DNA of 33,201 bases from Gracilibacteraceae bacterium (GTDB lineage: Bacteria > Bacillota > Desulfitobacteriia > Desulfitobacteriales > Syntrophobotulaceae): contig JAISAH010000066.1 in assembly GCA_031266805.1 (NCBI GenBank), positions 1 to 33,201 of the forward strand. Direction: 5' to 3'. The notes beneath the pieces were generated by a model that did no database searches, was not told the DNA's origin, and saw only the letters and a list, made by a program, of their open reading frames with translations. Made by a program: the position numbers and the translations under genes. Shown here one piece after another: positions 24 through 30,700 of the stretch (positions are counted from its first letter, which is position 1; each line of letters opens with the position of its first letter).

Positions 24-53
24 AAAAGGGCGGCGGAATCGCTCCCGCCGCCC
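24..53 (-). terminator. Rho-independent terminator closing the surface operon
   Basis: Read on the minus strand, a perfect 9-bp GC stem (GGGCGGCGG with CCGCCGCCC, positions 53-45 and 36-28) encloses an 8-nt loop and is followed at once by TTTT (27-24). It begins 13 bases past the stop of the small anchor ORF, so it is the natural transcription end for the leftward gene string. The U-tract is short (four bases), but the stem is very stable. Confidence 0.8.
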
Positions 54-66
54 GCGTACCTGTCCG

Positions 67-156
67 CTATTTCCGCTTGCTCCGCAGAAACAACCACACG
101 CCCGCGCCCAATACAAAAAGGACAAGGGCAATGCTTAAAATCGTTTTCGTGTCCAT
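67..156 (-). CDS. 29-aa membrane-anchor ORF: detached tail of the adhesin sorting signal
   Basis: This ORF begins ATG at 156, 13 bases past the adhesin stop codon, and ends TAG at 67-69. It encodes a short polar start (MDTKT), an uninterrupted hydrophobic stretch of about 19 residues (IL...WLFL) and a basic end (RSKRK). That is the architecture that normally follows LPXTG in a cell-wall sorting signal. The preceding gene ends LPRTGY-stop, so motif and anchor lie in different frames, with an additional in-frame TGA just ahead of this ATG. An AGAGG Shine-Dalgarno-like sequence lies 7 bases upstream of the ATG, so independent or coupled translation is possible. Alternatives are a frameshifted end of one gene or a deliberately separate membrane peptide. 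Confidence 0.6.
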   Translation of the reverse strand: MDTKTILSIALVLFVLGAGVWLFLRSKRK

Positions 157-169
157 GTGTCAACCTCTG

Positions 170-3100
170 TCAATATCCCGTGCGCGGGAGTTTTTCGGGC
201 TTCTTGAACACCGTGCAAAGCGTTGTGCTATTCGACAAAACCCATTCTTGCCCGTATTTGCCGCCCGCGTCGGATTTGTTTGCGAACTCGTAACCGTTCG
301 GCAAAGAAGCCAATACCTTGACGAAAATCCGAGGTTGCTCAACTTGCGCGAAGCCCGCCTTGACGGTTCCGAACAGCAATGTGAACGAAGTCACGTACTC
401 GTCCGAGTAAAGCCCCAGACTCGCATTTGAGCAGTCAATCACATTGTTTTTCGTTGTTGATAAATTATCCGCTATAACTCTCGAATCGCCTTTGTTTGTG
501 GTAATCATCACCTTGTATTTCAAGGCTTGGTTGTAAGTTCCCGTGACGATTCGAGTCAGTCGCACGGCGTCGGTGGGCAGGGTATCTCTCCAGTAAAAAT
601 CCGTGAGCGGCACTGTGGACGTGTTCCTCACTTCCCTGATGACGTAGCTTATCGTATCGCCGGGCATACACTCGGCGGGGCCTGTTTTCTTGATATACGC
701 GCCCGTGTTGGCCGAATAATTGAGGTACTCTGTCTTGATGATCTGAGTGGCAAACTCAATCTCAATGTCGAGCGTCTTGTCGGACAGTTTGTAATACGAC
801 GGACTTTGAACCTCTTTTACGAGATAGCGTCCGAGCGGCAGCGGTTTTGATATTGCTCTGCCGTCGCTGCCCGACACAAAGCGGTCAATGAGAGTTCCTG
901 TTTTATAGTCGTAGCACTCAAAGATCGCCCCGGAGAGCGGCGTCCCGGCAGGAAGCCCGTTTACTTCGTTATCGTCGCCGCTCAGTTTGGTTATCTGCAC
1001 TTGCCCCATTTCGGGGGTGTTCTCCCAGCGGATCTCCGTCACTTTTCCGGGCGTGAACTCCGCCGTTCTCGGCGTATCATCACGGTAGTAACCCGCCGCT
1101 GCGCGGGTTTCGCGAATTGTATAGCGCCCCGCTGTCAGATCATCCGTGAAGTCAATAACACCATTGTTATCGGTGTAATACGTTCCTACAACTTTGTTGT
1201 CGCTGTCAAAAATCATAAACTCGACATTGTAAATGCCTTTCTTTGTAATACTGTCGATTTTTACAAGCCGCAGCCCGGCCTTTGGCGTGTTGGTGAGCTC
1301 ACGCGCGGATAATTGGCCCGGCGTGACGGTGACGCTGTGAACGCTCGTATCAAGCTCATAGCCGCTCAAAGCCTTGCGCTCAACAACATTGTACTCGCCG
1401 GCCGGGAGGGAGTTTATGAGGATCCTGCCTTGCGCGTCCGTGGTGTAGCTGCCCGCGACGTCCCCATTCGGCGTAGTCGTGCGGTTTGGGCTGTTAGCTT
1501 CGGTATCAGGCTGATTGCCGTCCAAAATATTCCCGGCGACGCGCTGCCCGTCCGCTCTCGTCACGTCAAAAACCACGCCCTCAAGAGGATCGCCCGTGCG
1601 CTCGTCGGTCTTAACGATGAGTAGTCCGCTCATGGGCGTGTTAAGAATTTCAAGCACAGTGGGCACTCCGCTCTCGATCCGCACGGTTTTTGGCTCGGCG
1701 TCAAGCAGATAGCCCTCCTGTTGGCGGGTTTCCGTTACGGTGTAATAGCCGTCCACGAGATTGGGGATATATATTTGCCCGGTTTTGTCAGTCGTGAAAG
1801 TATTGCCGCCCAATTCGCCCGTCACCTTCTCGCCGCTCATCCCCGCGATCTCGAATTCCGCGCCCTCGATAGGCTCACGAGTCACGCTATCCAGCTTGAT
1901 GATCTTGAGGCCGGAAAGAGGCTTGTTCAGAAATTCCACTGCTGTCAGCTTGCCGGACTTCACGACCACTGTTTTCGGGGCCTCGTCCAAGGCATACCCA
2001 TCTGGGCTGATGGTCTCTGACACTATAAACGTGCCTTCCGGCAGGCCGGAAACAAGGATTTTTCCCGCGCTGTCGGTCTTGTACGTCCCGATTTTCTCCC
2101 CTGTGTCGCGCTCCACCGTGAACGTCGCGCCGGAAAGCGGGGCTTTGGTGAAGGCGTCCAGTTTCAGAATTTCTATGCCGGAAAGCGGGCGGTTCGTGAA
2201 CGTCACCACGGTGGGTACAATGGGTTTCACCTCTACGGTCCTCACCGCCGCGCTGAGAATGAATCCTGCTGGGGCCTTTTTCTCGGAAATCACCAGCCAT
2301 CCGGGACTGACGCTTGGTATGCTGATCGCGCCGCCGGCGTCGGTGGTGTATTCGCCCACATACTCGCCGCTTTGCTTCCTGACCTCAAAGACAGCGCCCG
2401 CCAGCGGCGTCCCGTCCGTCTCGCTCACCTTGCGGATCTGCAGAGAGGATAGCTGTTTGTTCTCGAAAACCAGCTTGATGAACTGATTATCCGTCACCTC
2501 AAAATCCTGCGGCGTATCGTCCAAAAGCCATCCGTCCGGCGCCTTGGTCTCGGCCGCTTTAAACCAGCCGGGGGAGAGCTTATCCAGGATGATCACGCCA
2601 TCGCCATTCGTCTCGTAATGGCCGACGATTTCCCCGTTTTGCCTGTACACGGTAAACTCCGCGCCTTTGAGCGGCTGTTTGCTCGCGGCGTCAATCTTGA
2701 TGATCTGAACGCCGCTTTTGGCCTTGTTGTAGAAGTCGATGGTGTAGGTCTGCCCGTAGTCCACCGCCACTGTCCGCGTCTGATTTTCCAAGATATGCGT
2801 CGGCAGTGTTTTGGTTTCGGTGACGACATAGCTGCTTTTGGGCAGGTTTGGGATGGTGATGATTCCCTGCGCGTCTGTGGTAAAAACGCCGCCCGCGCTT
2901 CCGATCACGCTCCCATCGAAGGCCGTCACCTTAAATTCCACCCCGCCAAGCGGCTCGTGGGTCGCGTGATCCATCTTGCGGATGATGATCGCGCCGTAGG
3001 GATAATCCTCAAACGACACCTTGTAGATCTTGCCGTCCGTGCCGATTTGAACTGTCTGTGGCGCAGTATCAATAGCGTAATTGGCGGGAGCCTGCAATTC

Positions 3101-6100
3101 TGTTACGACCGCCGCGCCAGGTTTTACGTTCGGTATCAGGATTTCTCCTCGGCTGTCCGTGACATACTCGCCGTTTGTATTACCGATCACCGCGCCTGTG
3201 CCGTCAACGACCTTGAAACGCGCTCCGGCCAAAGGCTTACCCGTCAGCGCGTCCGTCTTGGAGATCAGCAGAGATCCGTAGGGATAATTGGCAAAGGAAA
3301 ATTCGAGTACCGTCGTTCCATCCGCTTTGAGGAAGCCGTTTTGCTGTGAGTTTTCACTGATCAGGAAATTAGCGGGAGCCTGTACTTCTTTGCAGACATA
3401 AAATCCCGGCCCGAGGCCCGTGATCACGATGACGCCGCTGTTATCCGTGGTGTAGCGCCCTATGGCCGTGCCGGGCACGCCGGACACTTGCTCATCGGCG
3501 CGATAAAGCTCAAAGACCGCGCCCGCGAGCAATTCGCCCGTTATAGCGTGAGTTTTCTTGATGACTATGCTGTTGAGCGGCCAGTTAAAGCCCTCGCCCT
3601 GGGCATAATACTCGCTGCCGGAGTGTTCGGCGGCCTGTGCCGCGAAAGCACTCGCGGAAACCACGCCAGAGTCCGCCGCGCTCTGCGCAGCCTCTGCGCT
3701 GTCCGCGCCGGTGTAGTAACGCTCAAATTCCGGCAGATAGGCGTTATCGCCTGCGCTGAAATACATGCGGGTCACGGGATTCTTCGGGAGTGAAAAACCG
3801 GGAGCCGGCAAAGTTTCCGTGAATATAAGCCACCCCGGCTCCGCTTTGGGTATGATTATGCGCCCGTCCGTTCCCGTCTTGTAGCTGCCGAGGTTTTTCA
3901 GTCCGCCGCCCGGCTGCTCATATTCCACTTTGAATGTCGCGCCGGGTATGCCTTCGCCTGTTAAGGCGTTGGTTTTCAGAAATATCGCCACGGGTTTTCT
4001 GATGTTATCGAACTTAAGGGTTTTAGTTTTGCCCCATTCAAGCTGAATTTCCTTGCTTTCGGTGTAAAGGAGCCAGCCCTCAGGCGGCATAAATTCCTCG
4101 GCGCGGTACACCGCTTCGTCGAGATTCTCAATCAGGATTTCGCCCGACAAATCGGTGATATACTCGGAAACTGTGGCATCCTCCGCTTTCGTCACACGAA
4201 ACTCCGCATTTGGCAGCGGCTCTCCAGTCGCGGCGTCGATTTTGAGGATCCGCAGCTTAGGCCTGGCCTTGTTGGTGAAAACAAGGGTTTTTGTTTCTCC
4301 CCATTCGAGTTTGATGTCCTTTCGCTGCGGATCAAGCAGATAACCGGCCGGCGCGGCATATTCCTCAGCTGAGTAGATTTTGTCCTCAAGCCCCGTGATG
4401 AGTATGCGCCCGTCTGCCCCTGTGACGTACTCGGAAACCGTGCCGCCCTCAGCAGCCCAAACGCGGAACTTGGCTCCCGCCAGCGGCGCTTTGGTTTCCT
4501 CGTCGATTTTGAGGATTTCCAGCGCGGGCTTTGCTTTGTTGGTGAAAATCAGCGTTTTAGTTTTTCCCCATTCGAGCTTTATATCCTTATGCTGCGGGTC
4601 CAGCAGATAGCCGTCCGGAGCCTCGTACTCCCAGACGGAGTACACCGCTTCGTCAAGATCGTATATCATGACAATCCCGTCCGGCCCCGTGACATATTCG
4701 CTGACTGTAGCGTCCTCGGTCTTTTGCACTTTGAACTTCGCTCCGGCCAGCGGCTCACCCGTTTGACTGTCAAGCTTCATAATTCGGAGCGCCGGACGCA
4801 ACCGGTTATCGAATTTGATTTCGACCGTTTTGCCGGGTTCAAGGTAAACGTCCTTGGATTCCCAGGTTTTGAGATAGCCCTTCGGCGCGGCCAGTTCCGT
4901 AACGGTATACCACTCGCTTAGGTCAAGGTTCTCAAGGTGGATCATGCCGCTCGGACCGGTGATGCCCTCGTACAAGATACTGCCGCCCTTTTTCGCCACC
5001 GAAAACTCCGCGCCCGCCAGCGGCAGACCGGTGTCCTCGTCATATTTCCAGATGATCAGGCCAGGCTTCTTGCTGTTTTCCAGGACGATGGACGCGCTTT
5101 TGCCCGCTTCTAAACTGATGGTTTGCGGCGCGGAATCAAGCGCATAAGGCTCCGGCACGGATATTTCCGTCGCGGTATACACGCCAGGAGGGAGGGAGAG
5201 GTATGCCCAGCCGCCCGCGCCGGTCGTCACGTCCGTAAAATTCATGCCGCCTTCTTTGGCGACGCGGATGACGGCGCCTTCCACGCCCACACCGGTTTCC
5301 GCGTCGATTTTGCGCACGGAGAGCGACGGCTCTTTTTCGTTGGTGAATGTAACAGTGGCCGTCTGCTCCCACTTGACGGTCACGTCCTTGTGAGATATCA
5401 CGTCTAATACGAACCCGGTCGGCGGGGTCAGTTCCTCAACTTGAAACACGCCGGTTTTCGTCAGCGGGACAACAACGCGCCCGCTGCTATCCGCAGTGAA
5501 CACTCCAACCACGCCGCCGCCCTCATCCGTCACCTTGAATACAGCGCCCGCGAGCGGTGAGTTCGTGCCTGCGGCCAGTTTGACGATCTCAAGGAAGGTG
5601 TTTTGCGAGGAGTAAAGCGCGGTCGTCGTAGCGTTTTGAAAGTCGAACGGATCGCGGGTCACAGCGAAGTCCTGCAAGGCGCTGTCATAGGACAAACCGT
5701 AAATAACGGCGTTGGTACGCAGCTGCCCTTTGACCGTGACAACAAAATTACCTGTTCTATCCGCGATTTGGTCAGCCGGAACGATCACCTTAAATTGTTC
5801 GCCGGTTGCGAATACTGTCTTTGGATTGCCTGCGGGGTCTGTAACTTTTGTGCCGCCAGGGACATCGCCCTCAAGGAAAACTTCGAAGTTGCGGATTTCC
5901 ATGTTGGCCGTGACGGTGTAGGTCTGCGAGACGTAGCCAGGACTCAGCGCGTCTTGCTCCATTTTCGCTGCGCTCGGCGCGACTGAAAGCATGGTCTGCG
6001 GGATTGAGGTGACGGCTATGCCCGCCGCATAAATTTGTTTCATCGCGGCCAGCGTAACCGCCTGCTCGCCGCCTGCCGCCGTCCAGCTGTTCACGTTCCA

Positions 6101-6523
6101 GCCGTAAATGTAGGTCCAGAGCGCCATTTTGGTGGCGTAATACGCCTGCTCGCGGGTGTGGACGCCGAGTTCGCCGATGGTTTTGTAGGGATAGCCGTTT
6201 GAAACTATGCCCCATATTTTCGGGTTACTGATATAATCTTTGGTATCCACGCTGTAGGGACTCGTTTCGCTCGGCCCCGGTTTTTGCGGGTTTAGGCAGT
6301 AGGCCGGGAATTCAAATGATTCGCCGGTGAGCAGGCGCCCGGTGTAGCCGACGAAGAACACGGTTTTGGGAACGCCCTCATAGAGCAGGTAGTTGAGCGC
6401 TTCCCCAAGGGAATAAATGCGGGCCTCGGCCATCGCTTCTTCCTCGGTGGGAGCCGCCGTCGCGGGACTGACCGCGCCCAGCAGGGCGATAAGCGCAAGC
6501 AAAATGATCAACGCTTTTTTCAT
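170..6523 (-). CDS. Giant SpaA/Cna-B repeat surface adhesin with N-terminal thioester-like domain and LPRTG end
   Basis: A 2,117-aa secreted surface protein. The start is ATG 6523 behind AAGGAG, because the encoded residues then open with a clear signal peptide (MKKALIILLALIALLG, cleavage near ATA-AP, residue 24). Residues about 30-300 resemble the thioester adhesin domain: YCLNPQ with Cys76, an NGYPY element, and AYYATKMALW, where families of this type usually carry TQ before the aliphatic-Trp segment. Residues about 311-1935 are 17 tandem prealbumin-fold (SpaA/Cna-B) repeats. Each begins K-[ILV]-D-x-T-G and ends F-x-N, with a central E-x-x-x-P-x-G, consistent with intramolecular Lys-Asn isopeptide bonds known from this fold. 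A last domain (about 1935-2110) precedes LPRTGY and the stop codon. The transmembrane and basic tail are missing from this frame. The expected role is a sortase-anchored stalk for attachment to surfaces or mating partners. The sortase and a stalk-domain protein are directly upstream. Confidence 0.9.
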   Translation of the reverse strand: MKKALIILLALIALLGAVSPATAAPTEEEAMAEARIYSLGEALNYLLYEGVPKTVFFVGYTGRLLTGESFEFPAYCLNPQKPGPSETSPYSVDTKDYISNPKIWGIVSNGYPYKTIGELGVHTREQAYYATKMALWTYIYGWNVNSWTAAGGEQAVTLAAMKQIYAAGIAVTSIPQTMLSVAPSAAKMEQDALSPGYVSQTYTVTANMEIRNFEVFLEGDVPGGTKVTDPAGNPKTVFATGEQFKVIVPADQIADRTGNFVVTVKGQLRTNAVIYGLSYDSALQDFAVTRDPFDFQNATTTALYSSQNTFLEIVKLAAGTNSPLAGAVFKVTDEGGGVVGVFTADSSGRVVVPLTKTGVFQVEELTPPTGFVLDVISHKDVTVKWEQTATVTFTNEKEPSLSVRKIDAETGVGVEGAVIRVAKEGGMNFTDVTTGAGGWAYLSLPPGVYTATEISVPEPYALDSAPQTISLEAGKSASIVLENSKKPGLIIWKYDEDTGLPLAGAEFSVAKKGGSILYEGITGPSGMIHLENLDLSEWYTVTELAAPKGYLKTWESKDVYLEPGKTVEIKFDNRLRPALRIMKLDSQTGEPLAGAKFKVQKTEDATVSEYVTGPDGIVMIYDLDEAVYSVWEYEAPDGYLLDPQHKDIKLEWGKTKTLIFTNKAKPALEILKIDEETKAPLAGAKFRVWAAEGGTVSEYVTGADGRILITGLEDKIYSAEEYAAPAGYLLDPQRKDIKLEWGETKTLVFTNKARPKLRILKIDAATGEPLPNAEFRVTKAEDATVSEYITDLSGEILIENLDEAVYRAEEFMPPEGWLLYTESKEIQLEWGKTKTLKFDNIRKPVAIFLKTNALTGEGIPGATFKVEYEQPGGGLKNLGSYKTGTDGRIIIPKAEPGWLIFTETLPAPGFSLPKNPVTRMYFSAGDNAYLPEFERYYTGADSAEAAQSAADSGVVSASAFAAQAAEHSGSEYYAQGEGFNWPLNSIVIKKTHAITGELLAGAVFELYRADEQVSGVPGTAIGRYTTDNSGVIVITGLGPGFYVCKEVQAPANFLISENSQQNGFLKADGTTVLEFSFANYPYGSLLISKTDALTGKPLAGARFKVVDGTGAVIGNTNGEYVTDSRGEILIPNVKPGAAVVTELQAPANYAIDTAPQTVQIGTDGKIYKVSFEDYPYGAIIIRKMDHATHEPLGGVEFKVTAFDGSVIGSAGGVFTTDAQGIITIPNLPKSSYVVTETKTLPTHILENQTRTVAVDYGQTYTIDFYNKAKSGVQIIKIDAASKQPLKGAEFTVYRQNGEIVGHYETNGDGVIILDKLSPGWFKAAETKAPDGWLLDDTPQDFEVTDNQFIKLVFENKQLSSLQIRKVSETDGTPLAGAVFEVRKQSGEYVGEYTTDAGGAISIPSVSPGWLVISEKKAPAGFILSAAVRTVEVKPIVPTVVTFTNRPLSGIEILKLDAFTKAPLSGATFTVERDTGEKIGTYKTDSAGKILVSGLPEGTFIVSETISPDGYALDEAPKTVVVKSGKLTAVEFLNKPLSGLKIIKLDSVTREPIEGAEFEIAGMSGEKVTGELGGNTFTTDKTGQIYIPNLVDGYYTVTETRQQEGYLLDAEPKTVRIESGVPTVLEILNTPMSGLLIVKTDERTGDPLEGVVFDVTRADGQRVAGNILDGNQPDTEANSPNRTTTPNGDVAGSYTTDAQGRILINSLPAGEYNVVERKALSGYELDTSVHSVTVTPGQLSARELTNTPKAGLRLVKIDSITKKGIYNVEFMIFDSDNKVVGTYYTDNNGVIDFTDDLTAGRYTIRETRAAAGYYRDDTPRTAEFTPGKVTEIRWENTPEMGQVQITKLSGDDNEVNGLPAGTPLSGAIFECYDYKTGTLIDRFVSGSDGRAISKPLPLGRYLVKEVQSPSYYKLSDKTLDIEIEFATQIIKTEYLNYSANTGAYIKKTGPAECMPGDTISYVIREVRNTSTVPLTDFYWRDTLPTDAVRLTRIVTGTYNQALKYKVMITTNKGDSRVIADNLSTTKNNVIDCSNASLGLYSDEYVTSFTLLFGTVKAGFAQVEQPRIFVKVLASLPNGYEFANKSDAGGKYGQEWVLSNSTTLCTVFKKPEKLPRTGY
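716..5593 (-). repeat. Array of 17 SpaA/Cna-B coding repeats inside the adhesin
   Basis: Seventeen consecutive units of about 85-115 residues can be read by eye from LEIVKLAAG (5593) to TEYLNY (716). Units 4, 5 and 6 are the most alike and share the KDIKLEWGKTKTL type ending; their DNA is also visibly similar (for example 4,260-4,350 versus 4,530-4,620), suggesting recent duplication. Unit 7 is atypical: its last strand lacks the F-x-N ending and it is followed by an Ala/Ser-rich linker of about 45 residues. The unit number may vary between strains through recombination (inference). Confidence 0.85.
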
Positions 6524-6619: not shown

Positions 6620-7540
6620 TCATTTCATGAAATATTCAGTGTCCAGAAATTTGCCGTTGTTGTAGCTGTCGTAGGCGTAAATGCGGATTACTGTGCCGCC
6701 ACCCGTTGATTTTACGAACTTCTCAATTTCCCAATCTCGCCACGGATAGAATGTGTGCGGTCCCATGTCGTCCGTGATTTCAACGCTGATGGTGAAATTC
6801 GGGATATTGGTGGACGGATCGTGGTTTTTCCATAAGAGCGGATTCTGTCTGGCGTATTTGTAAATCGTTCGCGCCATGCGCTCAACCTCGTAGGGATTGA
6901 ACACCATGAGCGTGTCGTAGGGAAAGCCGTACGTCTCGCCGGTAAAACGGACGGGCGGCTGACCCGGGAATGTCAGGCGGGGATAGCTGTCCCATTCGCT
7001 CTGCCAGGCGGGGAGCGGCACATTCGGCCAGAGAGTGCCGTCCGCTGTTTTCCAGGGCCTGTCCTCCGGACCGCGCAGGATTTTGTAGTCGCCGCCGACG
7101 CTGCCTTTTGAGGTCGCCACGGGCGAGACATTCACAATGTCGCCCGTTTTCAGGGGACTGAACGCGAAGCCGTAGCCGCCCGTCAGGGGCGCGGGCGTAG
7201 GAATTGCGATTGGCTGCACCGCTTGCGGCGCTTGCTCGCCCCCGTCATAGCCGCGCGTCGTGTCGATGACTACGCGGCTGTTTGCGTCATCCCACACGGC
7301 GCTGAAATCCTTGCCGCTCGCTTTGAGCGCGGCTGACGTGTCGCGGAGCTGGAAGTAGTGACTGCCTTCAATGACGTAGCCTTTCAGGCTGGCCGTCCGG
7401 CCGTCGATCACGGCGGCCACCGCCATAGGCTGCGCTATGACGCCGGCCGCCGCGTAAGCCGCCGCCCCGCCAAAGAACACCGCCCCGATAATCACGCCAA
7501 GAATGAATTGGACGCCGCCTGTTTTATTCAGTTTTTTCAT
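6620..7540 (-). CDS. Membrane-anchored stalk-domain (copper amine oxidase N-domain-like) protein
   Basis: A 306-aa surface protein. ATG 7540 is preferred because GGAGGGG lies 9 bases upstream and the protein then begins with a short basic segment followed by an uncleaved-looking hydrophobic helix (residues about 10-37). Residues about 40-95 (ASLKGYVIEGSHYFQLRD, then a VWDD...VVID strand) match the stalk domain related to the copper amine oxidase N-terminal domain. This domain is a wall-exposed spacer in clostridia and carries no oxidase activity itself. A Pro-rich linker (about 105-118) leads to a C-terminal domain of about 190 residues rich in aromatic residues, which I cannot assign. The gene follows its own candidate promoter and sits directly ahead of the adhesin, so a role in surface display or adhesin support is plausible. 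Confidence 0.75.
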   Translation of the reverse strand: MKKLNKTGGVQFILGVIIGAVFFGGAAAYAAAGVIAQPMAVAAVIDGRTASLKGYVIEGSHYFQLRDTSAALKASGKDFSAVWDDANSRVVIDTTRGYDGGEQAPQAVQPIAIPTPAPLTGGYGFAFSPLKTGDIVNVSPVATSKGSVGGDYKILRGPEDRPWKTADGTLWPNVPLPAWQSEWDSYPRLTFPGQPPVRFTGETYGFPYDTLMVFNPYEVERMARTIYKYARQNPLLWKNHDPSTNIPNFTISVEITDDMGPHTFYPWRDWEIEKFVKSTGGGTVIRIYAYDSYNNGKFLDTEYFMK

Positions 7541-7679: not shown

Positions 7680-8450
7680 TCAGACGATTTCGCGGCATTG
7701 CAGCGCCCAGCGGAGTTCTGGGGCGCTTATGACACAGGTGATGAGGGTGAGGACGTTATTCGTCGTCTGGCCCAGCTTGGAATAATCGGTCTCGCTGATC
7801 TGCTCCTTGCTGTACACTTCATAGGTTCGCGTTCCGTAAAGCGTGGTGTAGGTGATCCTGTCGCCGATCTGCAAGTCCTTGACAAAACTGAAATACGGCC
7901 AGCTTCCGCGGTTATGGCCGCAAAGCCCGACATTGCCGTTCCATGCCGAGGTGGATGAGAAATGTCCCGCACCCTTTTGAAGGTTGGCTAAATCCTCGCC
8001 CTCATATATTTTGATGGTTTCTCTCGTCCGGGCGACATAGATCATGCCGATAGAACCGTCAGAATAAAACATTGGCTGGGCGCCCGCCGCGACGGAGGTA
8101 CTCGGCAGGAAGCCGCCCGGTAGGTCGGGAGTTGCGGAGGACGCGCCGCCCATTCCATTGTAGCCGTCGCCCGCGCCGGCCGGCGTATTGTCGTGATAGA
8201 GGCTGGACGGGTCTGTGGGGATCTCGCCGCTTCCGTAGAAATACGGCGGCGGTAGCGCGGCGTTATCCTTGTCCCGCCGGATGTTTTCGCTCATGAAGGC
8301 GGGGGAAAGCGGCTTGTCCGTGCCGGTAGGTTTCCCGAAAATCAAACCGCTGTCCGGGCCGGAGCCGAACGTGTGATCGGCGGCCGGCGCGGGAGCGGCC
8401 ACGCCTGCACACAGGACAAGCGTCAGAATCGCGATAAACAGTTTTCGCAT
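7680..8450 (-). CDS. Sortase (class D-like transpeptidase)
   Basis: A 256-aa membrane-associated cysteine transpeptidase. ATG 8450 follows AAGGAAG and yields an N-terminal hydrophobic signal/anchor (MRKLFIAILTLVLCAG). A Pro/Gly-rich spacer of about 115 residues separates this from the catalytic domain. The sortase triad is visible: His179 in GHNRG, Cys239 in LTLITC, and Arg about 247 in APELRW. The LQIGDRITY and YEVYSKEQI strands typical of the sortase barrel lie between His and Cys. Family knowledge: sortases cleave LPXTG-type motifs between Thr and Gly and link the protein to the wall or to another subunit. Its obvious substrate is the LPRTG adhesin two genes downstream. The class assignment (D-like rather than B) is from motif appearance only. 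Confidence 0.88.
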   Translation of the reverse strand: MRKLFIAILTLVLCAGVAAPAPAADHTFGSGPDSGLIFGKPTGTDKPLSPAFMSENIRRDKDNAALPPPYFYGSGEIPTDPSSLYHDNTPAGAGDGYNGMGGASSATPDLPGGFLPSTSVAAGAQPMFYSDGSIGMIYVARTRETIKIYEGEDLANLQKGAGHFSSTSAWNGNVGLCGHNRGSWPYFSFVKDLQIGDRITYTTLYGTRTYEVYSKEQISETDYSKLGQTTNNVLTLITCVISAPELRWALQCREIV

Positions 8451-8529: not shown

Positions 8530-9384
8530 TTAAATGCCAGAGATCACTCCTTTCAAGCGTTCTTCGGCAAGACGGCAGTAGCCGGGGTTGAGGTCAATGC
8601 CTATATACCGCCTGCCGAGTTTCAGCGCGGCCTCGCCGGTCGTGCCAGATCCAAAAAACGGATCTAAGACAACGCCGCCCGGAGGGCAGCCCGCGAGGAC
8701 GCAAGGAGTGATCAATTCCACCGGGTAGGCAGCAAAATGCGCGCCGCGATAACTTTTTGCGCTGCATGTCCACAGGTCTCGGAGGTTGCGCGTGTCAGCC
8801 AGTTTTACTTCCCTTCCGGCGCGGCTAGGACGGGGCTTGCTCAATGTCTGAGCCCTCTGACCGGGCACGGCGGCGGCGTATTTGTGATCATTCGACACGG
8901 CGCGTTTCATGCGCGCGTGGGTCCCCGCCGCTACGGGCTTTGCCACCGCCTGCCTGTCGTAATAATACTGCGGCGACTTGGATAGCAGGAAGATATGCTC
9001 ATAAGAGCGCGTCGGGCGGTCACGGCAGCTTTCGGGGAGCGCGTTGGGCTTGTGCCAGATGATCGCGCTCCGCAGATACCAGCCGTCGTCACGCAGGGCG
9101 AACGCCAGCCGCCACGGCACGCCAAGCAGCTGTTTTTCGGCGTAGGAATCGGCAATGACTATCCAGAGCGTGCCGTCGCGAGCGAGAACGCGCCCGACTT
9201 CGCGGAACACCTCTGTCAATCGGGTGATATACCTGTCCAGGGTCTGCTCCAGTCCTATCTGGCCCTTCACACCATAATCCCGGAGTCCATAGTAGGGCGG
9301 GGATGTGACGCAGCAGCTTACGCTCTCATCGGGGAGCGTCCGCAGGGTTTGAGTCGCGCCGCCGCAGATGATCTGATTGCCCAT
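8530..9384 (-). CDS. Beta-class DNA amino-methyltransferase (N4-cytosine or N6-adenine)
   Basis: A 284-aa enzyme transferring methyl from S-adenosylmethionine to an exocyclic amino group in DNA. The catalytic motif IV TSPPYYGL (residues about 28-35) precedes the AdoMet-binding motif DPFFGSGT (about 240), the circular order of beta-class enzymes. The S/TSPPY form is more common in N4-cytosine enzymes, so that specificity is favoured but not proven. WHKPNALPESCRDRPTRSYE and YYYDRQ between the two fit this group. ATG 9384 is preceded by AAGGGGGG and starts 14 bases after the upstream stop. No restriction endonuclease is adjacent, so it looks like an orphan enzyme protecting the element or marking its DNA. 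Confidence 0.88.
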   Translation of the reverse strand: MGNQIICGGATQTLRTLPDESVSCCVTSPPYYGLRDYGVKGQIGLEQTLDRYITRLTEVFREVGRVLARDGTLWIVIADSYAEKQLLGVPWRLAFALRDDGWYLRSAIIWHKPNALPESCRDRPTRSYEHIFLLSKSPQYYYDRQAVAKPVAAGTHARMKRAVSNDHKYAAAVPGQRAQTLSKPRPSRAGREVKLADTRNLRDLWTCSAKSYRGAHFAAYPVELITPCVLAGCPPGGVVLDPFFGSGTTGEAALKLGRRYIGIDLNPGYCRLAEERLKGVISGI

Positions 9385-11651: not shown

Positions 11652-12797
11652 TCACCTCAATCCGAAAAATCTTTTTTTGCCCGCCCGTTTGGTTTCCGCA
11701 GGCGGTTTTACCTGCTCGATCGTCAGGTAATCCCTGAAAATCTCTTTGTACATGCCGAGATTTGCGCCTGTTGCGAATGGATAAGGCGCGTAGTCCGCGA
11801 AATGGGTCTTGCAGCCGCCCATCAGAGAGCGGATGCCGGCCTGCTCGCCGGGCGGGGCGTGATTCATAATGAACTGCACGTTCCGGCAGTCCGCCACCGC
11901 CTCGAATACAGAGCTGTAGGCCGGCATTTCCCACGCTTTCGCGCCGCCGACCACGAGTTTTATATCTTTTGCCAGAAACGACGCGGATTCAAGCTCGGAA
12001 AAACGCCCAAAATCGAAGATCAAGAAGTCGTAGCCCGCCGACACCACCTCCGGCAGCTTGAAATCAAAATACATGTCCACGCCCTCAAACTGGAGCAAGT
12101 GGCGGCGCTCATTGGCGTTGACGGCGTAGGCGCGGGCGAGATAGACGATGTTGCGCCGCTCGCCGGCCTCCAAATAGCACGCCTTAAACCCTGTGCCGCA
12201 GAGGAATTTTGTCGCCAGCAAGGCGTGATGGGTCGCGCCGATATGCGGCTCGGCGCCGCAGACGGCAACCGTCACAAACTGCTTATGCTTCTTGAAATCC
12301 CGGTTGGCCGTGAGCTTCTCATTGGCGCATGGCGGTCCCGGCATAGGCGGCGCATGTTCCGGGGAAGACTCCCCTCTGCCCGGAGGCGGCAGGGGGGAAT
12401 CAGGCATAAGAACCGCTCTGGCTTCCTCTTGCGTCATGCCCGTCGTCAGGCATTTTTTCAGCGCGTCATCGCCGGGATCGCGCGCAATATCGTAAACGCC
12501 CATCTCAATCAAACGGGCGAACAGCAGGCTGCCGGGCGTTTCCCGGTCGGCGACGACGATCACGCGGGTATCGGTGTACATGGCGCGGAACGCCGCGATG
12601 GCTTCAATGAACTCGCCAGTCGTGTCCTTTAGCGCGGAGAGATCAACGACAAAGCGGCCGGCGTGAGAGAAATCCGCCGCGCTGCCGATCACCAGCTTTT
12701 TCAGGTGGGATTGCCGTATTTTCGTCACGATCATAAAGAGCTTGCCGCATATCTCGTCCAGGAGATCGGGGCGAAGCTCGGAAACATAGATTATCAA
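11652..12797 (-). CDS. CpaE/ParA-like protein with degenerate Walker A
   Basis: A 381-aa protein. The TTG start at 12797 is preferred because GGAGGTGATC, a full match to the 16S anti-Shine-Dalgarno sequence, lies directly upstream (five bases between the match and the TTG). Residues about 1-125 look like a degenerate receiver-type domain (FVVDLSALKD, then VIVVAD and GVYDIARDP), as in CpaE-like proteins. A Pro-rich linker (about 130-155) leads to a P-loop-like domain. The nucleotide loop reads CGAEPHIGATH, without the lysine of G-x-G-K-[ST], and a Walker B-like FLIFDFG is present. ATP hydrolysis is therefore doubtful. Placement beside the VirB4 and C39 genes suggests a positioning or regulatory role in the mating apparatus (inference). 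Confidence 0.6.
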   Translation of the reverse strand: MIIYVSELRPDLLDEICGKLFMIVTKIRQSHLKKLVIGSAADFSHAGRFVVDLSALKDTTGEFIEAIAAFRAMYTDTRVIVVADRETPGSLLFARLIEMGVYDIARDPGDDALKKCLTTGMTQEEARAVLMPDSPLPPPGRGESSPEHAPPMPGPPCANEKLTANRDFKKHKQFVTVAVCGAEPHIGATHHALLATKFLCGTGFKACYLEAGERRNIVYLARAYAVNANERRHLLQFEGVDMYFDFKLPEVVSAGYDFLIFDFGRFSELESASFLAKDIKLVVGGAKAWEMPAYSSVFEAVADCRNVQFIMNHAPPGEQAGIRSLMGGCKTHFADYAPYPFATGANLGMYKEIFRDYLTIEQVKPPAETKRAGKKRFFGLR

Positions 12798-12831
12798 GCG
12801 TTGATCACCTCCGTCCGCTATGTCCTTGCCG

Positions 12832-13032
12832 TCAATCTCGCCCGCGAGGTCCATAAGCTGCGCAATCGGGCATAAAAATACCGCCGCTCATTGCTTGGGG
12901 AACACGTCCCCGCGGCGCTATTTCAGGCGGGTCGTACAGTTTGCCGCCCGTCAGCAGCCAGATCACGGCAGCGGCGACAATGAGGATGTAGAGGCATAAC
13001 TCCACGATCCTCGCGGGGGAACGAGTTTTCAT
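12832..13032 (-). CDS. Small single-span membrane protein (66 aa)
   Basis: ATG 13032 is preceded by AAGGAGTG with good spacing. The protein has a basic N-terminus (MKTRSPAR), one hydrophobic helix (residues about 10-28, VELCLYILIVAAAVIWLL) and a Pro/Arg-rich tail of about 35 residues without recognised motifs. It lies between the C39-peptidase and P-loop genes in the same run. No family assigned. Confidence 0.6.
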   Translation of the reverse strand: MKTRSPARIVELCLYILIVAAAVIWLLTGGKLYDPPEIAPRGRVPQAMSGGIFMPDCAAYGPRGRD

Positions 13033-13083
13033 AGCTTTTTCACTCCTTGCCTGATACAACATGATATGATAGCCCCATCCAAA

Positions 13084-13929
13084 TCAAGGGGAGGGGCCGA
13101 GGATCCAAAACGGGCCGCCAGCGCCGGCGTCCTTGCGCGCCTCGCTGAGAATGATGGACAAATCCCACTCCTGTTCGCTCCGGGACCGGCTGGCGGGGTC
13201 GGCCACAAGGATTTTGCCGGCGCTGGTCACGCCGCGCAGCACGATGAAGTGGCCGCCTTTGGTAAAATGCCCTTGGGACATGATGGCGACGACCAACTTG
13301 CCGGAAGCGAGGGCGTCTGCGAGCTTTTGCCCATCTTCTGCCCCGGCGCCCTCCACGGCCAGGCCGAAATGCGCCGCGCCTTCCGGGATCAGGCTGTGGT
13401 AGCTGCCGTTGCCCTCGCATTTGTAGCCGTTATGATAAGCCCAGTTCGCCATCGCCGCCGGATCGACCGTTTGAGTGGACAAAGTGGACACCGCGATAGC
13501 CAGCGAGGCCGGGCCGCAGCCGGAGCTTCCGATTGTACCCTGCTTGCCGTAGGGCTCGTTTGTCCACCGGGAATCAAACTGGCTGTAATACACGACGGAA
13601 GTATTGCCGTCCGCGAAAAGGGCGCCTTCATAGTTCGCGCCGCTTTCGGCGATCCAGTCCTCGTCCGAGGGGTCTATATACTGGTCATAGCCGTGTTCAA
13701 TGCGGACGCCGCGCACAGTGTCGTAATCATTGCCGAAAAAGAAGTCCCCCAGCAGTTGCAGCGGCATGGTGAGAATATAAAAGAACAGACTGACGATGAA
13801 GATGAACGCCGCTAGCGGCGCTACGGCCATTGCAAGGACTTTGCCGCGTTTGTTTTCATCCGTCAGAACGGAAACGGCGGCTTTCGCCGCCAGTTTGACG
13901 GTCGCGGGGCCTATAGTGACCACCTCCAT
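13084..13929 (-). CDS. C39-like cysteine peptidase of the mating apparatus (VirB1-like role)
   Basis: A 281-aa membrane-anchored hydrolase. After a hydrophobic segment (about 33-60) comes a peptidase C39-like domain: YYSQFDSRW, then SSGCGPASLAIA with the catalytic Cys near 136, GGHFIVLRG with the catalytic His near 226, and VADPAS supplying the Asp. In Gram-positive ICEs a wall-cleaving enzyme opens peptidoglycan for the channel, and this gene lies just downstream of VirB4, where such enzymes are usual. The start is uncertain. ATG 13929 has no good ribosome site. GTG 13989 is possible. A GGAGGTGG element instead sits 5 bases ahead of an ATA codon at 13914, as if a standard start codon had mutated there. 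Confidence 0.78.
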   Translation of the reverse strand: MEVVTIGPATVKLAAKAAVSVLTDENKRGKVLAMAVAPLAAFIFIVSLFFYILTMPLQLLGDFFFGNDYDTVRGVRIEHGYDQYIDPSDEDWIAESGANYEGALFADGNTSVVYYSQFDSRWTNEPYGKQGTIGSSGCGPASLAIAVSTLSTQTVDPAAMANWAYHNGYKCEGNGSYHSLIPEGAAHFGLAVEGAGAEDGQKLADALASGKLVVAIMSQGHFTKGGHFIVLRGVTSAGKILVADPASRSRSEQEWDLSIILSEARKDAGAGGPFWILGPSP

Positions 13930-14028
13930 AAACTTTTTGAAACTTTTAAGCGGCGGGCAACGGTCAATACCCGCAAAACCATGTAACACGCGATCTTCCG
14001 CCGACGCAGAATCGGAGGGAGGGCTACT

Positions 14029-15849
14029 TTACCGCCCGCCGCCCTTGCCCATGTAGCGCAGTTTGTAGTCCGCTATGTCAAAGCGTATCAGCATCCGCTT
14101 TGACCCGGCGAAAAGCAGGGCGTAGCCGCGCTTCTTGTTGAACAGATGATCCTGCTCCACCTCGGTGAGATTGTACAATTCGGCGGTCTCGGTAAGGTTC
14201 TTTCCATCACAGCCCATCAGGATCTTGTACGCCGGTATGTCCATGAGCGCCTGCCCATACATCTTTACAGCCGGATCAAGAAAATCCACGACCGAATGGG
14301 AGATGATCACCAGTCCCGCCTCGTATTTGCGGGCGCGCTTCGCCACGTTGCGGAGAAAAATAAGGCTCTGCGGCACGTTCGGGTCAACCAGCAAATAGGC
14401 CTCGTCGCAAACCAGCAGGACTTTTTCCCCCCGATCCTTGCTCATCTGCTCCCACGCCCAGGTCAGAATGTTGTAATACTGCGTCTTTTTGATGGTGTCG
14501 GACATGCTTTGCAAATCAAAGGTGTCAAGGCAGATGAACCGGCTCTTGGGGCTGACCGTCGTGGCTCCGTTCCATAGAAATGAATCGCTGCCCTCAGCAA
14601 GCTCGCGCGCGACGATCGTCAGATATTCCAGATTTTTCTTATCCCCAGACATTTCAAGCCGCTGCTTCAAGAGAGCGTACAAATCGGCGAATGTAGGGAA
14701 GGCATCAGGCTTCATGCCCGTGACATCCGTGTCCCATGTGATCCCAAAGCCCTTATACAGTTCTTCCAGCGCCTGTTTCAGCAGGGCTTTTTGTATTTCC
14801 GTCAAATCCGGCATATACAGCTTCATAAAGACTTCAAAGGTTTTGAAGTGTAAAGCCAGCGCGCCCATGCCGGAACCCTCGTTGGAATACAGCTTTTCGC
14901 TCTCGTCCTCGTCGTCTGCCGGCGCGGGGCGCGGCTCCAAAGGGTTAATGCGTCCGCCCGCGCCGCCGCCGCAGTTGATCCAGTCGCCGCCCAGACGCTG
15001 GCACATGTCTTTCATTTCCCGTTCCGGGTCAACGCAGATAATTTTCGTGCCGCTCATGTACTCGGAGAGGATAAAACTCTTGGCGGCGGTGGACTTCCCC
15101 ACGCCGGCCACGCCAAGGATCACAAAGTTGGTATTGGTGCGGTCTCCGCCGCGCAGCCACGGGTCGATCACCACAAGTCCGCCTTGCGCGTCCTTGGCGA
15201 AGTAGCAGCCGTCCCGGTCGGAAAAGCCGGAACTGGCGAACGGCATACCGCCCATAAACGTGCTGAGCGGCACATTGCGCCGGGTGATGCCGCGGATCAC
15301 CTCCGGCATGACGTGATAAGGCGCGACGGCCTGATAGGCCTCTTTTTGCAGATTGGCCAAGACCCGGATCCGGCAGCGCAGAGTGGCCACGGCGCTCTCG
15401 ATCCCTCGGCAGATTTTCTCCAGCGCCGCCTCGTCCTTTGCCACCGGCATGATGAGGTTGCTCATATAGCCCACAGTTTCGCCGTTCTGGTCGATCTGGC
15501 GCATGAGGCGTTCCGCGTCGTCCGCCGATTTTTCCGCCCGCTGCCGCGCAAGCGCGTCCCGCGTGCTTTCGGCAATCCCCCGGTACTGCGTCACGCTCCG
15601 GGAGAGGTGTTCAATCAAAGCCCCGCTCACGCAAGGTTCAAATATCTGGCAGCTGACGGCGCGGGGGATGTTGGATATTTTGGACAGCCAGCCGGGGTCA
15701 ATGCTCTGCGGATATTTGGTGATGGCATAGACCTTTGCCACATTCTCGCCTATGACGATTTTTGCCCGTTGAAATTCCAGCCCGCCCATCGGCGTGATGG
15801 CATTCAGAAGCGCGTTGTTTATGGGCACGGCTTCTTTAACCGTTTTCAT
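14029..15849 (-). CDS. virB4: VirB4-type conjugation ATPase
   Basis: A 606-aa ATPase that powers the type IV secretion channel at the inner face of the membrane. ATG 15849 follows AAAGGAG and lies inside the end of the upstream gene (14-bp overlap), so the two are coupled. Residues 1-200 form the N-terminal VirB4 domain. Walker A is GVAGVGKST (about 246-254), followed by the ICVDPEREMKDMCQRLGGDW and INPLEPRP segments typical of the family. Walker B is LLVCDEAYLL (about 476-485), followed by the RKYEAGLVIISHSV segment. It is shorter than the roughly 800 residues of many VirB4 proteins; the missing N-terminal part appears to be supplied by the 216-aa product of the preceding gene. Confidence 0.95.
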   Translation of the reverse strand: MKTVKEAVPINNALLNAITPMGGLEFQRAKIVIGENVAKVYAITKYPQSIDPGWLSKISNIPRAVSCQIFEPCVSGALIEHLSRSVTQYRGIAESTRDALARQRAEKSADDAERLMRQIDQNGETVGYMSNLIMPVAKDEAALEKICRGIESAVATLRCRIRVLANLQKEAYQAVAPYHVMPEVIRGITRRNVPLSTFMGGMPFASSGFSDRDGCYFAKDAQGGLVVIDPWLRGGDRTNTNFVILGVAGVGKSTAAKSFILSEYMSGTKIICVDPEREMKDMCQRLGGDWINCGGGAGGRINPLEPRPAPADDEDESEKLYSNEGSGMGALALHFKTFEVFMKLYMPDLTEIQKALLKQALEELYKGFGITWDTDVTGMKPDAFPTFADLYALLKQRLEMSGDKKNLEYLTIVARELAEGSDSFLWNGATTVSPKSRFICLDTFDLQSMSDTIKKTQYYNILTWAWEQMSKDRGEKVLLVCDEAYLLVDPNVPQSLIFLRNVAKRARKYEAGLVIISHSVVDFLDPAVKMYGQALMDIPAYKILMGCDGKNLTETAELYNLTEVEQDHLFNKKRGYALLFAGSKRMLIRFDIADYKLRYMGKGGGR

Positions 15850-23783: not shown

Positions 23784-25231
23784 TTATACATGGCTCTCGC
23801 CTTTGCCGAGTCGCGCCGCGATATTCTGCATGATGTACGCCAGCACGTTCACGACGATGGAATTTCCGCACATCTGATAGCGCGCGGAATCGCTCATTGG
23901 TTTCCCGTCGTGGCCGTATTCCGTCCACCCGCGAGGCAGCGACATCAACAGTTCGCACTCCGCGGGCGTCAGACGGCGCACGACGTGTATCCGCGCCTGC
24001 TGCGTGTCCTGCGGGATCGGGCAATGAGGCTGCGCGATATATGTCTGCTGCTTCATGCCGGGATTTGCCGCGAGGCAGTCGGCGGTGTCACTTAGGTCGC
24101 GCACCTCGCTTCGCTGGTTCTGCGCGAAAGCAATGATATTCGGGCCGCCGTCCGCGTTGGGACTGCCCTCGCCCCGCGCCGTCAGCGTCCGGGCTATTTG
24201 CGGCTCACACACGCAGGGAACTTGGTTCAAGCCGCTGGGCGAGGCTTTCAGCGTCGGGGACACCATCTCATTGTAGGCGATACTGCGGGCGTTTTTCGCC
24301 TGTCCTGCCATGAACGCCGCGCAGATATACGGCTGCTCATGGTGGATTGTCAGCGTCGGGGCAAGATCGCGAAGCGTTTCCGCATTCGTCTGGCCGGACG
24401 CGGCCACGACGACGTTTGAGGGATGGCGGGGCTGGCTTTCGCCCTGCGCCCGGATGCTCCCCCGCCAATAGCCGCGCCTGGTTTCGCCATAGGCGTTCAT
24501 TTCGGTGATTCCGCCGCTCTCGCTTCCAGCGCCGCTTTCAGCATCGGCGGCAGTTCCTTTCCCCTCGCCCTCGCGCGCCGCAAAATACCCTGACAGGCTC
24601 GTGGGCTTAAAGAGTATTTCTCCGGCACATTCTCCTGTAAAATCGACGACAACAAACAGACGCCTTCTTCGCTGTGCGACTCGGTAATGTTTGGCAGCGT
24701 CTTTGACGATCCAAGCGAGACTAAAGCCTCGGCCTCGTACCATTCCGGCGTTTGCCCATCGGCCAGACTGAGGCATTGGAATTTCGCTCTCACAGAACGC
24801 TTTGAGCGCGGTCTGATAATCACGCCCGGCATAACTTCCTTTGCCGCTGGACAGGAGACCGACGACGTTCTCGAAGATGGCGATCTTGGGGTATTGTCCA
24901 TTCGTTTCTTCCCTCATTTCCCGTATGATCCTGATGGCTTCCATGAACAAACCGGATTTTCCCGCAAAGCCTGTGCGGGTTCCGGCGATTGAAAAGACTG
25001 GCAGGGTGAGCCGAAGGCGATAATGTCTGTCGGCTCTATCGCTCCGCCGTCGAGCTTTGTGATGTCGCCCAAGTGCGCCATATCGGGGAAATGGCGCTTT
25101 GTGACCGATATAGCGCCCGGCAGTATCTCGCTTGCCCATACCGGTGTTATCCCGAAATATGTTCCGGCGAGAGGCACGGCTCCGATCCCGTCAAAGAGGG
25201 AGCCGAGTTTAATGGCGGCGCTGCTGTTCAT
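23784..25231 (-). pseudogene. C5-cytosine DNA methyltransferase disrupted by a one-base frameshift
   Basis: The 5' part (from ATG 25231, overlapping the upstream stop as ATGA) encodes motif I (GSLFDGIGAVPLAG) and the catalytic motif IV (FGSPCQSF). Immediately after, the sense continues only in the -1 frame as FSIAGTRTGFAGKSGLF, then ENV (motif VI), QRRRRLFVV (VIII) and NSIVVNVLA (X) through 23784. A single missing T in the run at 24992-24995 explains it: with five Ts instead of four, the protein would read FGSPCQSFSIAGTRTG without interruption, about 482 residues. The 5' ORF runs on to a stop at 24914. The long variable region between VIII and IX (about 200 residues) would be the target-recognition part. 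Either a mutation or a sequence error in a homopolymer. Confidence 0.82.
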
Positions 25232-27760: not shown

Positions 27761-30700
27761 TTACATCTCCGGCTCGTTCTCGGCCTCCTCATCGTCCATG
27801 CCGGTGACATCTTCATTTTCTGGCTCAGGAGGCCGGTTGCCGTCGTCCAAAAGGGCGCCGTCGTCCGCACTCCGGTCAAGGTCAAGCTCCGCAGTGATCT
27901 TGGCAAGCTCCGAGAGTACGGACGCCAGCTCCCGTTCCTGCTCAAACGGGCGGGTCAGCCGTGTTTTTGAGGCTTCCAGCCGCCGCTCCAAGTCCGCGGC
28001 CTCGCGTCTATCGTCGTCAAGGTAGGTTTCCAAGCGTTCAAGAGCGTTTTCGATCCGGGTGATGCTGCCCGCATCGCTCCTTGACAATGCGACCTTGTGA
28101 GACCTTGCGCCTTTCAAAGCAATGACAGGCTCGTCGACGAGGCTCTTTCGCTCCTGAGGAACTATGTCAAAGCCCAGGTAGCGGCCAATGGCTTTATCCA
28201 CGTGCCGGCCCGACGAAACGGCTTTCAATAGCATTTCGCCCGCTTCTTTTCTCTCTGAAAATTCATGCTTGCCGAGCCGCATGTGAAACTCCGGCTTGCC
28301 GTCCCCACCCTTTGCCGTCTGCCCGTCCCTGAGCTTTATGTCCTCCTCAAAGCCCCGTATCTCACCGGCGAGCTTTGCCAACATCGCGGGGATATGCCCA
28401 GATATATCGTCCTCCAGCCTGTAACGGTCATACCGGTACTGCGATTCAAGGATTTGCAGCCGCTGGGCTTCAAGCTCCAATTCCATTCTGCGCTTGATCA
28501 AGGGGTTGCCGGTGGCGATGGCCTTGACCTCGGCGTAATTCAAAACCGTCTCATCCATGTCCTCAATCTCGCGGGAGGGGTTCTTGCCGCTCATCACCTG
28601 GGCGATGGCTTTGGCTTTGGACTCCACGATCTGCCAGAGGTAAGCATCGAAGCTGTTTTTTGTGACATACTGATATATCCGCACCTCCGGGTTGTCATTG
28701 CCCTGACGGACGATCCTGCCGTCGCGCTGTTCGAGGTCGGAGGGGCGATAAGGGCAATCCAAATGATGCAGCGCTATCAGCCGTTTTTGCGCGTTAGTGC
28801 CCGCGCCCATCTTCTGCGTACTGCCGAGGATCACGCGGATGTCGCCGCGCCGGACTGCGGCGAACATTTTCTCCTTCTGCTCGTCTGTTTTCGCGTCATG
28901 GATAAAGGCGATCTCCGAGGGCTCGGCGCCCATGTCGGTCAGTTTTTCGCGTATGTCGTCGTAGACGGAAAAGCCCGCGCCGCCTTTTGGTGTTGAGATG
29001 TCGCAGAAAATCATCTGCGCGGATTTATCCTTTGCCGTCTCTTGGTAAATCTCAAAGACCGTTTGAACGCAAATATTGACTTTGCTGCCTCCAAAGTCAG
29101 GCAGGGCGGCATTGATGCACCGCATATCCAGCGCGGCGTTTCTGCCGTCCGAGGTCACGCAGAGCATGTTATCGACTTCCGGCTTGACTGCGCCGTTTTG
29201 TATGCGCTCCGCGCGCTCGACAAGCGATTCCGTATACTTCCGCAGCTCAGGCGAGGGCTCTGCGGCGACCGTCACCGGCTTGCCGCCCATAATATCGGGA
29301 ACGGGCAGATCAAGCATGTCGGCGGTCTGAATGTCCGCCACGAGATGAAACAGGGTCATCAATTCAGGCAGATTAACGAATTTGGCAAACCTCTCCCGCA
29401 CTCTAATGCCTTGGCCGCTCGGCGCCAGTTCCAACGCGGACACCACCTCGCCGAACGCCGTCGCCCAGTTGTCGAAATGATTGAGACCGAGGCGTTCCAG
29501 TTCCTCCCGCTGCAAATAGCTCTGCATGGTGAAAAACTCGACCATCGAATTGCTGACGGGCGTGCCAGTGGCAAACACCACTCCGCGCGGGGAATGATTG
29601 CGCTCGTTGATGTATTCGCATTTCATGTCCATATCGGTGGATTTTTTGGCGCGGGCCTTTGACAGTCCCGCCACATTATTCATCTTCGTAAAAAAGAACT
29701 TATTTTTGTAATAGTGAGCCTCGTCCACCATCAGGGCGTCCACGCCCAATTCCTCAAAGTTGACGAGGTCGTCTTTCGGGCTGTCTCGCAAGCATTTTAA
29801 TTGGTACTCAAGATTTTTGCGCTCTCGCTCAAGTTCCTTTACGGTGATCCGCTCGCCGCTATTCGTCTTTGCCTCGATCAGCGCCGCCTCTATCTCGCCG
29901 AGATCGCGCTGTAACCGTTTTTCCTGGCGCTCCCGCGACATCGGCACCTTTTCAAAGCTGCTGTGCCCGATGATCACGGCGTCCCATTCCCCGGTGGCGA
30001 TGCGCGCGCAGAAACGGCGGCGATTTTCTTTCTGAAAATCCTTTTTGGTGGCGGCGAGTACGTTCGCCGTGGGGTAGAGAGCTTGAAACTCGTTCGCCCA
30101 CTGGCCGACAAGATGATTGGGCACAACAAAACAGGGTTTTTGGGCGAGGCCAAGCCGCTTTTGTTCCATAGCGGCGGCTGTCATGATGTAAGTCTTGCCG
30201 CTGCCAACGACATGGGCCAAAAGCGTATTGCCGCCGTAGAGGATCCTTGCCACCGCCGCCTTTTGGTGAGGCCGCAAGGTTTTCTCCGGGTTCATGCCGG
30301 GGAAGGAAAGGTGCGCGCCGTCATAAGCGCGGGAGCGCTCCGAGTTGAACAGCCGGTTATATACCGCGCAGAGACGCTCCCGCCGCTCCGGGTCGTCGAA
30401 CACCCAGCTTTTGAACTCCTGTTTAAGTTTTGCCTGGCGGGCACGAATAGCGACGGTCTCTTTATGATTCAGTCCGCGCTTTTCTTTGCCGTCCACGATC
30501 TTGACGTCATATATCCGGGCGTTGCGCTGGTTCAGCGTGAGTTCAAACAGATAGCAGGCGTCCATGCGCTTGGTGCCGTACTCCTGCGTCGCCTCCACAG
30601 AGCCTTGAAGCCTGTAGCCAATGCCTGCCGTCCATTCGCCGGTGCGCTCGGAATAATGCACCTTCACGCCTGCACGCGCGGCGGCGGGGACGTTCAGCTT

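Follow-up and report, generated by a model that had tools for sequence, protein, structure and literature searches.

A family of adhesins borne by integrative and conjugative elements (ICEs) ends one residue past its LPXTG motif, in LP[RK]TGY followed directly by a stop codon. The tail-less end is conserved, and a membrane tail is no part of the adhesin's make-up. The family is linked to sortases whose signal peptide is their sole membrane segment, and in a few loci to a small membrane ORF that is optional. In the window (the whole 33,201-nt stretch of DNA analysed here), the adhesin frame closes with KKPEKLPRTGY and a TGA stop (170-172, minus strand), and a 29-codon ORF for a membrane helix and basic end starts 13 nt past that stop in frame +1, as a sequence-only reading of this DNA had described when it placed motif and helix in two separate ORFs of different frames. 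The reading that we consider the probable one is that a dedicated ICE sortase fixes a mating adhesin to the wall by means of this minimal sorting signal.

Table 1. Features of the window bearing on the tail-less adhesin and its sortase
Feature	Position	Strand	Remarks
GC-rich hairpin then TTTT, terminator-like	24..53	minus	identified by eye; stem also conserved at C72, the genome's second copy
29-codon ORF MDTKTILSIALVLFVLGAGVWLFLRSKRK, one helix and basic end (RSKRK)	67..156	minus	optional; homologues in L005 and L008
Tail-less sorting motif LPRTGY and TGA stop	170..190	minus	LP[RK]TGY-stop invariant in the family
ICE adhesin gene	170..6523	minus	from its ATG; ends KLPRTGY-stop
Protein of about 306 aa, N-terminal membrane anchor	6620..7540	minus	between sortase and adhesin
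Sortase gene	7680..8450	minus	catalytic H, C and R; cleavable-looking signal peptide ending APA before D; class D-like catalytic domain
Signal-peptide protein whose C-terminal half has a membrane helix	9399..10691	minus	relatives precede the sortase in several loci

Conservation of the tail-less end

Relatives were sought with the last 180 residues of the adhesin as query, no particular C-terminal end being demanded, and all 19 with a readable C-terminus (about 49-83% identical) show LP[RK]TGY followed immediately by TAA or TGA. They comprise the second copy in the window's own genome (G000:C72, or L003; 83% identical over the 180 residues), 11 loci on genome contigs from MAGs labelled Oscillospiraceae, Clostridiales, Family XIII, Clostridia or Eubacteriaceae, four IMG/VR contigs about 50% identical to the window adhesin end, and three sequences from other whole genomes; a fragment at 42% (L034) that does not reach the C-terminal end stands outside this count. 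The aligned sequences show no variation in LP, TGY or the end itself; the roughly 10 linker residues that precede them differ in length and sequence. The motif part of a canonical sorting signal is present throughout (LP[RK]TG is invariant in 20 adhesins), and the fused hydrophobic helix and basic tail are missing, the stop falling one residue past LPXTG in every close relative. The sequence-only reading had reasoned that homologues with an uninterrupted LPXTG, helix and tail would reduce the split to a mutation or an error; the family holds none, and the sole relative with a canonical tail is a distant one (L025, E 1.7e-5) that carries a fused, ordinary LPKTGS-helix-tail.

When 17 genomes or records were scanned for the pattern LPXTGY-stop, 30 matches came up, of which 27 belong to this adhesin family and the other three are not adhesin ends, and the reversed pattern returned none in the same 17. 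The conservation of a stop directly after LPXTGY is thus far beyond chance, and it is from these 27 adhesin ends, against none in the control, together with all 19 relatives that we conclude the absence of a membrane tail to be built in. A PF00746 search of the own genome gave no match.

No adhesin matches were found in the plasmid and phage collections, and the same-family and same-class genomes searched held no further copies, so the elements appear patchy. The copy at C72 lies on another ICE of this kind in the genome, a diverged one that encodes an adhesin and a sortase of its own; given that no copies turned up in the same-family genomes searched, recent transfer or a MAG binning error is possible for it. 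On the 43.7-kb record G505 (L069) the LPXTGY-stop adhesin frame (11976-15728, minus strand) starts unlike other adhesins, a signal peptide not being seen, and the record contains no sortase. This frame is possibly an assembly or fusion oddity.

Adhesin architecture

From its N-terminus the window adhesin consists of a Sec signal peptide, a thioester-type (TED/TQXA-like) head and 17 SpaA/CnaB-type stalk domains (matches to PF08341 and to PF17802 in 17 stretches), and its last domain is DUF11-like. An AlphaFold model of this last domain (180 residues) is confident, with pLDDT 93 and strand up to residue 168, and places LPRTGY in the low-confidence, disordered tail beyond that residue; the end is therefore probably exposed. 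A fold search with the same domain gave weak beta-sandwich matches only, the best being 1amx at a TM-score of 0.35.

The head has a peculiarity of its own. The TQxA-like stretch (residues about 162-168 of P0001) reads ATKMALW, apparently with lysine where glutamine is usual, and the same replacement is seen in the L003 and L007 copies. The cysteine of the thioester-type head is kept (PAYCLNP). The thioester may accordingly not be formed, or it may be formed via another glutamine (REQAYYA).

The linked sortase

Eleven loci have a sortase gene upstream of the adhesin, on the adhesin's own strand and contig. Among 16 aligned sortases the catalytic residues H179, C239 and R247 are invariant; all 16 have an N-terminal, signal-peptide-like hydrophobic stretch and an AxA-like site with an invariant alanine preceding the mature part, and none has a further hydrophobic segment. 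A region of about 100 aa at the N-terminus is conserved among them as well. These genomes also encode several other sortases that do have an anchor at the N-terminus or a helix at the C-terminus. The ICE sortase thus seems to be a secreted protein with a cleavable-looking signal peptide, and it is possible that the N-terminal segment stays uncleaved and serves as an anchor. If the signal peptide is cleaved, as its sequence suggests, enzyme and substrate would both be free of the membrane.

By catalytic-domain sequence the closest PDB chains are 5hu4, 4d70 and 2kw8, which we take to be class D sortases. The window sortase scores 45.6 against the general model TIGR01076, above its cut-off of 39.35, and 50 bits against the NCBIfam class D model, whose cut-off is 165; it reaches the cut-off of no class model. 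Structure prediction for this enzyme with AlphaFold gave a poor model, with a pLDDT of 56.

A further observation concerns the linker before the catalytic domain, which in 10 of the 16 ICE sortases contains an LPxT sequence (LPSTS, LPPTS or LPDT): at 8094-8108 (minus strand) in the window and also in L058, L041, L045, L057, L035, L044, L047, L055 and L064. This sequence could be a self-substrate, a pseudosubstrate or inhibitory element, or a chance occurrence in a linker rich in proline, serine and threonine.

The small membrane ORF

The small ORF of the window (codons 70-156, stop 67-69) lies between the adhesin and a terminator-like hairpin, and the AGAGG noted by the sequence-only reading is indeed found 7 nt upstream of its ATG. 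A helix ORF with a basic end directly follows the adhesin in 3 of 27 loci (the window, L005 and L008) and is absent within 300 nt of the adhesin stop in the other 24, two of which have just 248-400 nt of downstream sequence available. In Markov-shuffled downstream DNA the chance of a hydrophobic, basic-ended ORF starting no more than 17 nt past the stop is about 0.0005 per locus, so that three occurrences in 27 are more than chance. The L005 and L008 peptides are homologous to that of the window (76% and 48% identical), all three are 29 residues long, and pN/pS is 0.44-0.47 in each pair, the window-L005 comparison alone not being significant (P 0.07). The peptide otherwise finds only itself in the own genome, nothing above noise except L005 and L008 in 16 other genomes or records, and nothing in viral contigs.

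In a tree of the last adhesin domain the three helix-ORF loci do not group, and three gains or losses are needed; two near-copies from one MAG (L006 and L008, 95%) differ in its presence; and the C72 copy lacks the small-ORF segment and keeps the GC-rich hairpin downstream. Taken together with its reading frames, discussed below, the small ORF looks like a real but optional gene that is translated separately, rather than a recoded tail.

ICE setting

The window is that of an ICE, with a VirD4-type coupling protein, a MobL relaxase, PrgI, TrbL and a VirB4-like ATPase. The gene order of membrane protein, sortase, N-anchored protein and adhesin recurs in other loci. No recognised domain was found in the window's N-anchored product, its relatives have a weak copper-amine-oxidase-N-like stretch, and the gene in the same middle position in L067 (2524-3213, plus strand) encodes a CAP domain. 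The ICE also encodes two DNA methyltransferases and a large helicase-methylase protein (8530-9384, 23784-25139 and 27761-33070, minus strand).

Origin and role of the detached helix

The sequence-only reading had suggested that a slippage duplication split one gene, pointing to an imperfect 10-nt repeat at the junction; the repeat exists, with 7 of 10 positions matching, but it is not conserved in other loci, and its collapse would leave a TGA between the parts and so yield no single open frame. As every close relative stops at the identical position after LPXTGY, with or without a small ORF, slippage and sequencing error were rejected, and we give them almost no credence. Recoding, by stop readthrough or frameshift, would join the tail part of the time and produce a canonical LPXTG-helix-tail protein, and at L005, where adhesin and helix ORF share a frame and are parted by a single TGA, this might be imagined. 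The frame relative to the adhesin differs in each of the three loci, however (0 in L005, +1 in the window, +2 in L008), whereas a recoding signal would keep one; in the window a TGA stands in the small ORF's own frame one codon before its ATG, so that simple frameshifting cannot fuse the two; and in most loci there is nothing to join. The three frames led us to reject recoding, which we regard as very improbable, and favour independent translation of the small ORF, which the sequence-only reading had allowed for.

A further proposal of that reading was that the small peptide is a detached anchor, needed as a partner to bring the adhesin to its sortase. The shared position, the 29-aa length, the conserved helix and basic end, a pN/pS of about 0.45 and a ribosome-site-like sequence in the window and L005 are all in keeping with such a partner. 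As a general need, however, the idea fails on the loci themselves, since the expected recurrence held for the LPXTGY stop in all 19 relatives but for a membrane ORF at the same place in only three of 27 loci, with no other copy of meaningful score in the genomes and none beside the second adhesin of the same genome. A required partner is therefore quite improbable. In the elements that encode it, the peptide may be an accessory that keeps adhesin or sortase near the membrane.

Proposed mechanism

Under the favoured reading, in which the tail-less motif suffices for wall attachment, the adhesin would be exported by Sec, leaving its flexible LP[RK]TGY end accessible to the sortase encoded a few genes upstream. 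Cleavage of the captured end at the T-G bond would free the dipeptide GY, and the adhesin would be linked to an amine in the cell wall or on a further subunit. The membrane helix is perhaps dispensable for the adhesin because its own sortase also appears not to be firmly membrane-bound. Staphylococcus aureus SrtA incorporates exogenous LPETG peptides that have no membrane segment, at high concentrations (PMC4723074), and given this need for high concentrations the efficiency of sorting without retention is questionable.

It is also possible, and on balance unlikely, that most of the adhesin is released or is retained by non-covalent contacts. LPXTGY would then be a motif for binding to the sortase, to a wall component or to part of the transfer machine, or a signal that links subunits, rather than a wall anchor. 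That no close relative has a membrane tail would fit such a role, as would the partial occurrence of the tail-less AbpA in the medium and the service of the pLS20 adhesin in conjugation without any sortase signal; the exact LPxTG consensus and a linked sortase with all its catalytic residues argue instead for a sortase substrate. A variant was also considered in which sortase and adhesin both lack a membrane anchor: the sortase would be secreted and would weld the adhesin outside the membrane, possibly also, in view of the LPxT sequences in the linkers of most of these sortases, onto itself or the mating partner. This variant seems distinctly unlikely.

Relation to known systems

In the textbook sorting signal a membrane helix is required and retains the protein for the sortase. 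A conserved family without the helix, together with a seemingly secreted sortase, points to other ways of achieving retention, and the LPXTGY-stop adhesins and their ICE sortase offer a natural system for testing alternative retention. These adhesins would escape annotation based on the LPXTG-helix-tail unit.

The tail-less sorting signal itself has one experimental precedent. AbpA of oral streptococci ends in LPKTS followed only by AVK and is anchored to the wall by the linked SrtB, part of it being lost to the medium (PMC4974636), which indicates that such a signal can work. Both are secreted adhesins with an LPxT motif, few residues after it, no helix and a dedicated adjoining sortase (here GY-stop, with the sortase upstream in 11 loci). 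AbpA-SrtB, however, is not described as ICE-borne, whereas the present family is carried by ICEs; AbpA is unrelated to the giant SpaA adhesin and its signal is LPKTS-AVK rather than LP[RK]TGY-stop; and SrtB is a class B enzyme assumed to be a membrane protein, in contrast to the class D-like signal-peptide sortase seen here. Class D sortases provide the best sequence matches to the catalytic domain of the ICE sortase, which nonetheless falls below the NCBIfam class cut-offs and differs in its conserved N-terminal region of about 100 aa, its cleavable-looking signal peptide and the lack of an evident anchor. In open-licence papers on secreted or soluble sortases, tail-less LPXTG and LPXTGY, the ICE-borne LPXTGY-stop family with its signal-peptide sortase was not found described.

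There is also reason to compare the adhesin with the TIE adhesins, one of which, the TED/CnaB adhesin of plasmid pLS20 (TIE-pLS20, Bacillus subtilis), is needed for efficient conjugation (PMC8092201). The window adhesin shares with TIE-pLS20 and BaTIE the signal peptide, the thioester-type head (recognised by domain match) and the CnaB-type isopeptide stalk, and a class of gut ICEs probably has its mating adhesins in the LPXTGY-stop family. TIE-pLS20 has no LPXTG and pLS20 no sortase, and BaTIE has both LPXTG and a membrane helix; the window adhesin stands between the two, with the motif and its own sortase but without the tail.
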